Shown here: piece after piece, positions 18,710 through 39,865 of the stretch
Layout of the letters: each line of letters begins with the position of its first letter
Numbering within the stretch: the stretch's first letter is position 1
DNA from: Dermatobacter hominis
GTDB lineage: Bacteria > Actinomycetota > Acidimicrobiia > Acidimicrobiales > Microtrichaceae
DNA length: 64,000 bases
NCBI RefSeq assembly: GCF_020715685.1
Contig: NZ_CP085840.1
Location: 930,001-994,000 of the forward strand
Direction of reading: 5' to 3'
Position numbers and translations under genes: made by a program
The notes under the pieces: generated by a model
The model's input: only the letters and a program-made list of their open reading frames with translations
Told to the model about the DNA's origin: nothing
Database searches by the model: none

Positions 18710-18714
18710 GTTCG

Positions 18715-18829
18715 GACACTTGGTTGCCGCCGACTCAGCCGACTGGCCACATCCCCGCCGAGGCGGGATGGCACCTTGGGTGTCCGTCCCAGGTTGCCGG
18801 ACCCCTCGCGGGGCCTCTCCTGATGATCC
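18715..18829 (-). promoter_or_regulatory. SAM riboswitch (SAM-I/SAM-IV clan)
   Basis: Reading the minus strand: P1 5' side GGATCATC (18829 down), the AGGAGAGG entry, P2 CCCC-gcga-GGGG, the invariant CCGGCAACC, P3 TGGG/CCCA, then AAGGTGCCA and P4 CCCGCC/GGCGGG, closing with GATGTGGCC (ending 18745). This order and the CCGGCAACC ... GGTGCCA pair are diagnostic of S-box-clan riboswitches. Another GGCAACC and a GC helix follow at about 18715-18743, as in SAM-IV pseudoknots. It sits directly upstream of metX, so high S-adenosylmethionine should turn the operon down. Subclass (I, IV, or I/IV) is not settled. Confidence 0.88.
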
Positions 18830-18859
18830 ATCCAGAGAACACGGTCCGACCGGTCGCGG

Positions 18860-35268: not shown

Positions 35269-38037
35269 TCAGCTGCAGCCGCTCGTCGTCCCGCACTCCT
35301 GGCACACGAAGCACGACCCGGCGCGGGTCATCTGCACGCCGCACGTCATGCACAACGGCGCCTCCGCGGCGGGGCGGATCGGGTCGGTGTGCAGCTCGGG
35401 CTGGCGCGACGGCGCCGACGAGGGCGTCGGCGGGTCGGACGGGGCGTCGGTGCCCTGGACGGTCGGCGTCGTCGCCTCCTCCACGCCCGGCAGCGTGGGC
35501 TGCAGGCGCTCCGACGTGCCGAGGATGCCGAGCTCCACCCGTTCGTCGTACGGGATGTACTCGAGCGCCAGTCGGCGGAACAGGTAGTCGACCAGGCTGT
35601 TGGCGATCCGCACCTCGGGGTCGTCGGTCATGCCGGCCGGCTCGAAGCGCATGCCCACGAGCGCCGCGACGAACGCCCGCAGCGGCACGCCGTACTGGAG
35701 CCCGTGGCTCACCGAGATGGCGAAGGCGTCCATGATCCCGGCCAGCGTCGAGCCCTGCTTCGACACCCGGATGAACAGCTCGCCCGGGCGACCGTCGGCG
35801 TACTCGCCGACGGTCACGAAGCCCTTGCAGTCGGCCACGCGGAACTCGAACGTCTTCGACGTCCGCGTCCGGGGCAGCCGCTCGCGCACCGGACGGGCCA
35901 CCTGCTCGACCACCTGCGACGCCGCCTCGGCGGGCGTGCCGGCCGCCGCCGCACCCTTGCCGGTGCTGAGCGGCTGGGCCACCTTGCAGTTGTCCCGATA
36001 GAGCGCCACGCACTTGATGCCCGTGCGCCAGGCGTCGACGAGCAGCTGCTCGATGTCGGCGACCGAGGTGTCCTCGGGCACGTTGACCGTCTTCGACATG
36101 GCACCGGAGAAGAACGGCTGGATGGCCGCCATCATCCGGAGGTGCCCGCCGTAGGAGATCGTGTTGTCGCCCATGGCGCAGGCGAAGACCGGCAGGTGGG
36201 CGGCGTCGAGGTCGGGGGCGCCGACCGCGGTGTGGTGCTCGGCGATCCAGCCGACGATCCGCTCGACGGCCTCGTCGGAGTAGCCGAGGCGGCGCAGCGC
36301 CCGCGGCACGGTCTGGTTGACGATCTCGAGGGAGCCGCCGCCGACGAGCTTCTTGTGCTTGACCAGGCCGAGATCGGGCTCGATGCCGGTCGTGTCGGCC
36401 CCCATCATGAACGAGATGGTGCCGGTGGGCGCCGCCACCGAGAGCTCGGCGTTGCGGGCGCCCGATTCCTGGATGCGCGACAGGGCGTCGGCCCACAGCC
36501 GCACGAGGTGCTGGTTGAGGTCGGGCTGGCCCTCGACCGCGTCGACGGCGCGAGCGGCGTCGAGGTGCATCCGGTACACGCCGGTCCAGGCCTCCTCGTC
36601 GGCGGCGAACAGCGGCGCCGGCCCGAGGCGGGCGGCGAGCTCGGTCGAGCGGACGGCGGCGGCACCGGTGAGGATGCCGGTGACGGTCGCCGCCCACGCC
36701 CGGCCGTCCTCGGAGTCGTACGGGAGGCCGAGGGCCATCAGCGAGGCGCCGAGGTTCGTGTAGCCGATGCCGATGTCGCGGGCGGCCCGGGCCTCGGCCG
36801 CGATCTTGTCGGTCGGGTAGTCGGACGCCCCGACGAGGATGTCCTGCGCGGTCACCACGACACGGACGGTGTGCTCGAAGCCCTCGGCGTCGAACGTGCC
36901 GTCCTCGGCCAGGTAGGACAGCAGGTTGATCGAGGCGAGGTTGCACGCACTGTTGGCGAGCCGGAGGTGCTCGGAGCAGGGGTTGCTCGCCTCGATGCGG
37001 CCGGCGCTCGGCGTCGTGTTCCAGCGGTTGATCGTCGTGTCGAACTGGACGCCCGGATCGGCGCACTCCCAGCTCGCCTCGGCGATCTCGCGGAGGATCT
37101 GGCGGGCGGGCACCCGGTCCACGACATCGCCCGTCGTGCGGGCGGTGAGCTCCCAGTCACGTCCATCGAGTGCGGCCTGCATGAACTCGTCGGTCAGGCG
37201 GACGGAGTTGTTGGCGTTCTGGTACTGGATCGAGAACGAGTCGGCGCCGTCGAGGTCCATGTCGAACCCGGCGTCGCGCAGCACCCGGGCCTTGCGCTCC
37301 TCGACCGCCTTGCACCAGATGAACTCCTCGATGTCGGGGTGGTCGGCGTCGAGGATGACCATCTTGGCGGCGCGCCGGGTGGTGCCCCCGCTCTTGATCG
37401 TCCCGGCCGACGCGTCGGCGCCTCGCATGAAGCTGACCGGGCCCGACGGCGTGCCGCCGCCGCTCAGCAGCTCCTTGGACGACCGGATCTTCGACAGGTT
37501 GGCGCCTGCCCCGGATCCGCCCTTGAAGATGACGCCCTCCTCCTCGTACCAGTTGAGGATCGAGCCGAGGTCGTCGTCGACGTCGAGGATGAAGCACGCG
37601 GCGGCCTGCTGGCGGGCCCCCGGCGTGCCGATGTTGAACCACACCGGCGAGTTGAACGAGACCCGTTGGTGCAGCAGCAGCCACCGCAGCTCGTCCGCGA
37701 ACGTGTCGGCCTCGTCCCGGTCGGCGAAGTAGCCGTCGCGGTCGCCCCACTCGGTGATGCGGCCGACGACCCGGTCGATGACCTGGCGCAGCGACCGCTC
37801 CCGGCGGTCGGTCCCCAGCGGCCCCCGGAAGTACTTCTGCGTGACGATGTTCGAGGCCGTCACCGACCACGACGACGGGAACTCGACGCCGGTCTGCTCG
37901 AACGCGACCGCGCCCGTGCGGAAGTCGGTCAGGCGGGCGTCGCGCCGGTCCCAGGCCACCTCGTCGTACGGCGAGCGCCCGGCGGTCGAGAAGCGCCGGC
38001 CGAGTCGGACGTTCGTGTCGGGTGGCGTGAGGCTCAC
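35269..38037 (-). CDS. nrdJ: vitamin B12-dependent ribonucleoside-diphosphate reductase (class II)
   Basis: A 922-aa class II ribonucleotide reductase that makes deoxynucleotides using adenosylcobalamin. N-terminal FNSPVWFNIG and AAACFILDVDDD carry the redox cysteine region, FKGGSGAGANLSKIRS is the flavour-defining loop, ASNPCSEHLRLANSACNLASIN contains the catalytic Cys/Glu/Asn, and APTGTISFMMGADTTGIEPD the conserved barrel loop. The C-terminus ends in a zinc ribbon (CMTCGVQM ... CFVCQECGTTSGCS) that carries the mobile thiols. GTG 38037 with CAGGAG 7 nt upstream. NrdR (39317-39784) is the likely repressor. Promoter at 38361-38388 leaves a leader of over 300 nt. Confidence 0.96.
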   Translation of the reverse strand: MSLTPPDTNVRLGRRFSTAGRSPYDEVAWDRRDARLTDFRTGAVAFEQTGVEFPSSWSVTASNIVTQKYFRGPLGTDRRERSLRQVIDRVVGRITEWGDRDGYFADRDEADTFADELRWLLLHQRVSFNSPVWFNIGTPGARQQAAACFILDVDDDLGSILNWYEEEGVIFKGGSGAGANLSKIRSSKELLSGGGTPSGPVSFMRGADASAGTIKSGGTTRRAAKMVILDADHPDIEEFIWCKAVEERKARVLRDAGFDMDLDGADSFSIQYQNANNSVRLTDEFMQAALDGRDWELTARTTGDVVDRVPARQILREIAEASWECADPGVQFDTTINRWNTTPSAGRIEASNPCSEHLRLANSACNLASINLLSYLAEDGTFDAEGFEHTVRVVVTAQDILVGASDYPTDKIAAEARAARDIGIGYTNLGASLMALGLPYDSEDGRAWAATVTGILTGAAAVRSTELAARLGPAPLFAADEEAWTGVYRMHLDAARAVDAVEGQPDLNQHLVRLWADALSRIQESGARNAELSVAAPTGTISFMMGADTTGIEPDLGLVKHKKLVGGGSLEIVNQTVPRALRRLGYSDEAVERIVGWIAEHHTAVGAPDLDAAHLPVFACAMGDNTISYGGHLRMMAAIQPFFSGAMSKTVNVPEDTSVADIEQLLVDAWRTGIKCVALYRDNCKVAQPLSTGKGAAAAGTPAEAASQVVEQVARPVRERLPRTRTSKTFEFRVADCKGFVTVGEYADGRPGELFIRVSKQGSTLAGIMDAFAISVSHGLQYGVPLRAFVAALVGMRFEPAGMTDDPEVRIANSLVDYLFRRLALEYIPYDERVELGILGTSERLQPTLPGVEEATTPTVQGTDAPSDPPTPSSAPSRQPELHTDPIRPAAEAPLCMTCGVQMTRAGSCFVCQECGTTSGCS

Positions 38038-38175
38038 GGAGCTGCTCCTGGTCGGCGAGGTGTGGGGGCGGGTGGTCGGGACCGGTGGCGCGGGCCCCCG
38101 GAGGCGACGGAGCGCCCGAGGTGGTGTGGACCACCTCCGGCGACGTCACGACCATGGTGCTCGGCCCGTGTGACA

Positions 38176-38306
38176 ATCCGTCGGGTCGGTGGCGGGGGAA
38201 CCGTTGGGGTCGAGCGCGGACGACCGGGCAGAGGCCGGACAGGACCACCCGCCGACCGCGAGGTCGGCGGGGCCCAGACCCCCAGGAGTCGCCCGACCCG
38301 ACGGAT
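38176..38306. promoter_or_regulatory. structured leader element (14-bp closing helix) between nrdJ and ribD-like gene
   Basis: Perfect inverted repeat of 14 bp (38176-38189 against 38293-38306) encloses about 103 nt, inside which a perfect 10-bp stem with GCGA/TCGC tetraloop lies at 38248-38271. Another perfect 8-bp hairpin (38118-38137) lies closer to nrdJ. Together they look like a folded leader RNA of nrdJ on the minus strand, or of the divergent gene. See findings. Confidence 0.45.
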
Positions 38307-38360
38307 CGGGAGGGCGTCAGCCACCATTCCGGCCGCCCGCGCCACGGCCCGCAGCGACGG

Positions 38361-38388
38361 ACACTACGAAGACCTGCCTGTGGGTCAA
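38361..38388 (-). promoter_or_regulatory. candidate nrdJ promoter
   Basis: On the minus strand TTGACC (38383-38388) and TAGTGT (38361-38366) with 16 nt between. It would start the nrdJ transcript near 38352, 315 nt before the start codon. Confidence 0.45.
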
Positions 38389-38430
38389 AAGGGGAACAAG
38401 GTGTGGATTTCTCCCCCATTTTCCCACAGG
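38377..38430. other. 16-bp inverted repeat with bulges in the divergent region
   Basis: Left arm 38377-38394 (CCTGTGGGtcAAAAGGGG) pairs with right arm 38413-38430 (CCCCaTTTTCCCACAGG core): 16 Watson-Crick pairs, one 2-nt and one 1-nt bulge, 18-nt loop. It overlaps the candidate nrdJ -35 element, so it could be a protein-binding palindrome, possibly a NrdR-type site, though the sequence is not the standard NrdR box. Confidence 0.6.
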
Positions 38431-38520
38431 CGGGCCGGATCGAGTCGTCGGTCGAGGGGCTGGGGACCCACCCGTCCGGCGGCTCCCGAGCCGTCGAAGG
38501 GCGCCTCTAGGGTCTGTCCC

Positions 38521-39316: not shown

Positions 39317-39784
39317 TCAGGACGGGAGCGGCCCGGGCGGCTCCACGAGGAGCTGGATCTCGCGCTCGAAGTCCTCGGGGCCCTGGAAGCCCTTGTACAC
39401 CGACGCGAAGCGCACGGCGGCCACGCCGTCGAGGTGCCGCAGCTCCTCGAGCACCAGCGCGCCGACCTGCGCGCTCTCGACCTCGCCGCCACGGACGGCG
39501 AGGCGGTCCTCGACGGTCGACAGGAGCGAGTCGAGCACCGCCGCGTCGATCGAACGGCCCTTGCACGCGGAATCGAGCCCGGAGCGGACCTTGGCGCGCT
39601 CGTACGGCTCGCGGCGACCGTCGCGCTTGACGACGACCAGCGAGACCTCGCCGATGCGCTCGAAGGTCGTGAACCGCGTGGCGCAGTGCTCGCACTGGCG
39701 CCGACGGCGGATCGTGCTGCCGTCCTCGGCCGCGCGGGAGTCGACCACCCGGTCCTCGAGTCCACCGCAGCTGGGGCACCGCAC
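39317..39784 (-). CDS. nrdR: transcriptional repressor of ribonucleotide reductase genes
   Basis: A 155-aa NrdR. The N-terminal zinc ribbon is CPSCGG ... RRRRQCEHCATRFTTFER (two C-x2-C pairs), followed by the ATP-cone domain (VVKRDGRREPYERAKVRSGL) which senses ATP/dATP. GTG 39784 (VRCPSCGG) is the family start and has AGGG upstream. NrdR binds paired boxes in front of nrd operons; the target here should be nrdJ, 1.3 kb away. It forms a series with the LysM gene that precedes it (82 bp) on the minus strand. Confidence 0.96.
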   Translation of the reverse strand: MRCPSCGGLEDRVVDSRAAEDGSTIRRRRQCEHCATRFTTFERIGEVSLVVVKRDGRREPYERAKVRSGLDSACKGRSIDAAVLDSLLSTVEDRLAVRGGEVESAQVGALVLEELRHLDGVAAVRFASVYKGFQGPEDFEREIQLLVEPPGPLPS

Positions 39785-39865
39785 GGCGCCGACCCTACCC
39801 GGCGGCGAGCCGGGCCCCCGTGCCGGCACCGGCCCACGACCTTCGAGCGCTCCCCAGCGATCGGC

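Follow-up and report, generated by a model that had tools for sequence, protein, structure and literature searches.

The gap between nrdJ and its divergently oriented neighbor contains a conserved structured RNA, built from helices other than those first named there. This RNA very probably controls nrdJ, because its three-armed shape is strongly conserved and it lies between the promoter and the gene. Our best reading, which we hold to be fairly probable, is that of a predicted cis-acting, riboswitch-like nrdJ leader, which would respond to a signal tied to class II ribonucleotide reduction.

The gap runs from the GTG of nrdJ (38037) to the ATG of a pyrimidine-reductase/RibD-like gene (38521), and its 483 bp between start codons agree with the length given in an earlier note on this DNA. 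The RibD-like gene lies on the plus strand, divergent from nrdJ, and its nearest NCBIfam models score below cut-off. The window (the whole 64-kb stretch of DNA analyzed) also holds nrdR at 39317-39829 and, on the minus strand at 18710-18831, a SAM-I/IV riboswitch found with Rfam (47.4 bits, above the gathering score). Elsewhere in the same genome a second reductase large subunit, of the NrdA/NrdE type, is encoded (TIGR02506 above cut-off; G000:C1, about 4620568, locus L185). The features of nrdJ and of the RNA are as follows.

35269..38037, minus strand: nrdJ, vitamin B12-dependent class II ribonucleotide reductase of 922 aa (NCBIfam NF005122, 1288.7 bits, and TIGR02504, both above cut-off)
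38045..38049, minus strand: Shine-Dalgarno AGGAG of nrdJ, 7 nt 5' of the GTG, assigned from sequence
38209..38347, minus strand: conserved RNA domain, a three-way junction of 139 nt (covariance model R1, 97.8 bits, sole match in the genome; alignment A3)
38329..38343, minus strand: 5' arm of P1, GGCGCGGGCGGCCGG, pairing with 38227-38213 (two-sided changes at 13 of 15 pairs; 35 independent double changes on the tree)
38213..38227, minus strand: 3' arm of P1, CCGGTCGTCCGCGCT, partner of 38329-38343, on the same evidence
38323..38328, minus strand: J1/2, AATGGT, a near-invariant junction strand (A3 columns 20-25: A97 A97 U75 G97 G100 U100 percent)
38285..38322, minus strand: P2 arm, GGCTGACGCCCTCCCGATCCGTCGGGTCGGGCGACTCC, with a conserved internal loop (31 independent double changes; its hairpin is also predicted for the domain folded alone)
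38282..38288, minus strand: P2/P3 junction strand, CTCCTGG, conserved (A3 columns 75-77: C92 C100 U100 percent)
38230..38283, minus strand: P3 arm, with conserved base GGGGGTC / GGCCTCT and a variable tip (13 independent double changes in 7 base pairs)

To collect related sequences, 33 genomes of the window's family were searched with the NrdJ N-terminus, which gave 30 upstream regions in known orientation. These shared a block consisting of GGAAYGGUGGCUGG, a hairpin, CUCCUGGGGGUC and a second arm, all enclosed within a 15-bp helix. An alignment of 15 sequences (A1) yielded a consensus fold with 33 pairs, in which the closing helix P1, of 15 bp, carries the arms P2 and P3 around a nearly invariant core (GGAAYGGUGG / CUCCUKG). 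A covariance model built from this alignment (R1) brought the set to 36 members, whose alignment is called A3. In a fold predicted for the window domain alone, every P1 pair was recovered.

In A3, standard pairs filled 93.2% of cells and two-sided changes occurred at 27 of the 33 pairs. Two-sided changes were seen in 190 cells (55.6 in shuffles). The covariation score reached 0.558, against 0.09–0.13 when partners were slid by 1–3 columns; all of these values come from an alignment made to the model and hence biased towards the structure. As A3 leans in this direction, we used a parsimony count on the NrdJ-protein tree as a second control. This gave 79 independent two-sided compensatory changes, spread over P1, P2 and P3 as listed above, compared with 4–13 for slid partners. 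In P1, for example, the window pairs GGCGCGGGCGGCCGG with CCGGTCGTCCGCGCT, whilst L011 has GGCACGGACAGCCGG / CCGGCTGTCCGTGCC and L017 has GACGCAGGTGGTCGG / CCGGCCACCTGCGTC, both sides having changed together in each case.

The structure differs from the palindromes that had first drawn attention to the gap, which are the following.

38176-38189 / 38293-38306: arms of a perfect 14-bp inverted repeat, unconserved, which would compete with P2
38113-38142: 13-nt hairpin
38373-38395 / 38412-38434: bulged palindrome

The letters of these palindromes are present at all sites, including an inner stem-loop between the arms of the 14-bp repeat, but the 14-bp pairing is not conserved: no relative, a genome of the same genus included, has the repeat. 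Its first arm is really the 3' side of the conserved P2 hairpin. Among 200 dinucleotide shuffles of the gap, 17 gave a perfect inverted repeat of 14 bp or more, and such a repeat is not exceptional in DNA of 75% G+C. The leader (38038-38364) folded modestly better than its shuffles (z -2.4); the stretch picked by hand in the earlier note gave z -3.6. A role for the 14-bp helix as an anti-aptamer was rejected, the pairing existing in the window and in no relative. The idea that the palindromes of the gap are functionless, unconserved products of a G+C-rich promoter region that is otherwise empty does hold for the 14-bp helix, which shuffles equal and relatives lack. It fails for the three-way junction found there, whose P1, P2 and P3 covary, and as an account of the gap it is already refuted and barely credible. 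The covariation check proposed in the earlier note went against the helices named there and in favor of another structure within that stretch. The broader suggestion of a structured nrdJ leader RNA is supported by the conserved three-way junction, its strong covariation, its nearly constant distance from a conserved promoter and the exclusive association with nrdJ, whilst the pairing partners are not those of the helices first named.

We assessed the distribution of the RNA with two models. When R1 was run against 296 whole genomes from the class, each of its 14 matches (E ≤ 0.01) lay directly upstream of nrdJ and on its strand. A second model (R2), built from A3, was run over 396 genomes of the phylum, where all 6 matches below E 1e-6 were nrdJ-linked; among weaker matches (E 5e-5 to 0.08) one was linked to nrdJ and five were not, and we take these five for chance matches. 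Weak matches outside the order (L189, L190, L192-L194), all away from nrdJ, were taken as chance. Direct scans of nrdJ upstream regions added further members. The RNA occurs in at least eight families of the window's order (f1, f4, f71, f73, f76, f77, f79 and f83), an order that includes Microthrixaceae, and was not detected upstream of nrdJ in sampled members of many other families, f2 and f5 for example. Within the window's family it was not found upstream of nrdJ in L027 and L031, both of one genus (g9); their short nrdJ leaders contain GCGGAGGATCC-type repeats instead. A pattern scan across all GTDB species returned 29 matches, of which 15 were confirmed by the model, these being nrdJ-family loci already found or their close relatives; the other 14, without such confirmation, were taken as chance. 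Named records among the matches include Microthrixaceae MAGs and strain IMCC26207. The RNA is also carried by three public MAG records (L069, L076, L070) that bear the label Bifidobacterium breve or Acidobacteria, and these labels look wrong.

The RNA is preceded by a promoter and a short conserved element.

38361..38388, minus strand: leader promoter, with -35 TTGACC (38388-38383), a 16-nt spacer and -10 TAGTGT (38366-38361)
38384-38377, minus strand: element CCCACAGG, of (C)CACAG(G) type, overlapping the last bases of the -35 and the first of the spacer

In the window the RNA begins about 17 nt after the -10 TAGTGT, and transcription is predicted to start at about 38355. The same arrangement was seen in about 40 of 42 members from eight families, with TAnnnT 13–24 nt upstream of the RNA and (C)CACAG(G) at a near-fixed distance before it. 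A conserved structured domain with covariation, as is characteristic of riboswitches, occupies what its promoter and spacing indicate to be a 5' leader. Two DnaA-box-like (T/C)CCACAGG elements (38377-38384 and 38423-38430) lie around the nrdJ promoter and are conserved in relatives, and TTGTCCACAGG also occurs near dnaA in the window genome (L196:3743); a link between reductase expression and replication initiation is possible.

Given that the RNA has its own conserved promoter and that its ends are closed by a P1 of 15–19 bp, it could instead be an independent small RNA gene, acting in trans or on a protein and placed upstream of nrdJ by happenstance. However, the RNA is always upstream of nrdJ on the same strand and never convincingly elsewhere, and no terminator follows P1. 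Furthermore, the distance from the end of the RNA to the nrdJ start codon in the window's family is usually 37–171 nt, and in L012, L014, L029, L033, L021 and L016 it is only 37–55 nt, not enough to fit a separate promoter with its leader. In six families (f4, f71, f73, f77, f79 and f83), the stretch between the RNA and nrdJ holds an NrdR promoter (TTGACA-17-TGTAAT with NrdR boxes at a usual distance of 42 bp), so that much nrdJ mRNA in these long-leader families would lack the RNA; for this reason we keep an independent small RNA as an alternative, though an unlikely one. For the window's family we infer that the RNA forms the 5' leader of the nrdJ mRNA.

In the window and its family, no NrdR box of 11/14 or better was found in the leader, in the RNA or within 60 nt on its upstream side. 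In the window genome, class I nrdA (L185), unlike nrdJ, has a TTGACA-TGTAAT promoter with NrdR-like boxes. Tandem NrdR boxes about 42 bp apart were observed at nrdJ in L111, L118, L061, L101, L110, L174 and L143; the NrdR boxes of Streptomyces are spaced by about three helix turns (PMC9110341). The simplest reading is that of a cis leader, which in the window's family would be the sole recognized control element of nrdJ besides the promoter and elsewhere would work beside an NrdR promoter.

As a cis leader, the RNA would fold immediately upon transcription, and expression of nrdJ would depend on whether it is folded or not. As no intrinsic (U-tract) terminator was found in the leader, the probable output is either translational, through access to the Shine-Dalgarno (38049-38045), or Rho-dependent. 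A possible switch is offered by the CUCCUGG junction strand, which may pair with the Shine-Dalgarno when the junction is unformed. In the window, CTCCTGG (38282..38288) is complementary to the nrdJ Shine-Dalgarno CCAGGAG at 7 of 7 positions, and the pairing is also perfect in L010 (9/9) and L056 (10/10). Across members the permutation p was 0.04–0.17, depending on the subset, and the link is suggestive only. A search among relatives for a conserved alternative pairing of the RNA with the downstream leader found none.

The signal probably has to do with class II ribonucleotide reduction itself. For the ligand, our leading guess is adenosylcobalamin, though a tentative one with distinctly less than an even chance; the gene itself and the fact that dATP/ATP is already covered by NrdR are the sole grounds for preferring it. 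As dATP/ATP is reported by NrdR, whose promoters occur together with the RNA in six families, a different signal is expected for the RNA. A class I reductase is encoded in the genome as well, and the only match to a cobalamin riboswitch there is below threshold, so nothing uniquely indicates B12. A nucleotide is the second guess, and a rather unlikely one; a protein ranks third. That the leader binds a protein (NrdJ itself or a ribosomal factor, for instance), giving feedback autoregulation and not metabolite sensing, would be in keeping with the association of the RNA with a single gene, and the conserved junction nucleotides fit a protein or a small ligand alike, but we consider this improbable. 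A new riboswitch class, in which a three-way-junction aptamer directly senses a small molecule (adenosylcobalamin, a deoxynucleotide or some other), switches the class II reductase on or off and has replaced NrdR at nrdJ in the window's family, appears to us a serious candidate whose chances fall a little below even.

RNA leaders of reductase genes are few, and the present one, in at least eight families and always at nrdJ, is not in Rfam release 15. Being small, with defined boundaries and a model, it lends itself to a direct test of a short list of ligands (adenosylcobalamin, dNTPs). A lineage that keeps NrdR boxes at its class I gene but has none, in the same genome, at the B12-dependent reductase is a natural experiment in the control of DNA-precursor supply.

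Cobalamin riboswitches are leader RNAs tied to B12 metabolism and are known near reductase genes. As the nrdJ product needs adenosylcobalamin, the RNA could be a divergent member of this family. However, no cobalamin-family match was found in the gap at E ≤ 10 or in 17 relatives at E ≤ 1, whilst the same model does match control genomes. The core letters and the order of helices also differ, so membership is largely refuted and we rate it as very improbable. The sole match of RF00174 in the window genome scored 31.3 bits against a cut-off of 31.5 (L184:1501-1610), after an aspartyl-tRNA-synthetase-like gene, and the RNA described here matches RF00174 in neither sequence nor structure. More generally, Rfam release 15 held no credible counterpart of the RNA, whether at the gathering score in the window, at E ≤ 10 in the gap or in seven divergent members, or at E ≤ 1 in the 17 relatives; the earlier statement that the gap has no complete known riboswitch agrees with this. 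In the literature covered, mostly open-access text, we found no description of the RNA, and an earlier description elsewhere is possible. The main text of two large non-coding-RNA surveys mentions neither nrd genes nor Acidimicrobiia.

2'-deoxyguanosine riboswitches are three-way-junction aptamers linked to deoxynucleotide supply. The RNA has the three-way junction in common with them (PMC12268651), but it has no Rfam match to them or to any riboswitch family. NrdR, a repressor of reductase genes that senses dATP/ATP (PMC9110341), controls the same kind of gene through its boxes but acts on DNA. The one Rfam family linked to nrdJ is the nrdJ RNA motif RF03034 (Weinberg et al., 2017, cited in PMC8388888; for S. 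lividans it is listed in PMC8079986). Like the present RNA, it is structured, lies directly upstream of nrdJ and occurs in Actinomycetota. With its cut-off of 40.3 bits, RF03034 matched neither the window genome nor the family member searched, nor the 17 relatives at E ≤ 1; above cut-off, it was found in the sample only in one Streptomyces-like genus. We rejected it as the same RNA, as the neighboring gene is shared but the sequence and fold are not: RF03034 is 80 nt long, with two tandem hairpins and a conserved UUCAGGGCGUU tail and without a closing helix, whereas the RNA described here is a three-way junction closed by P1.
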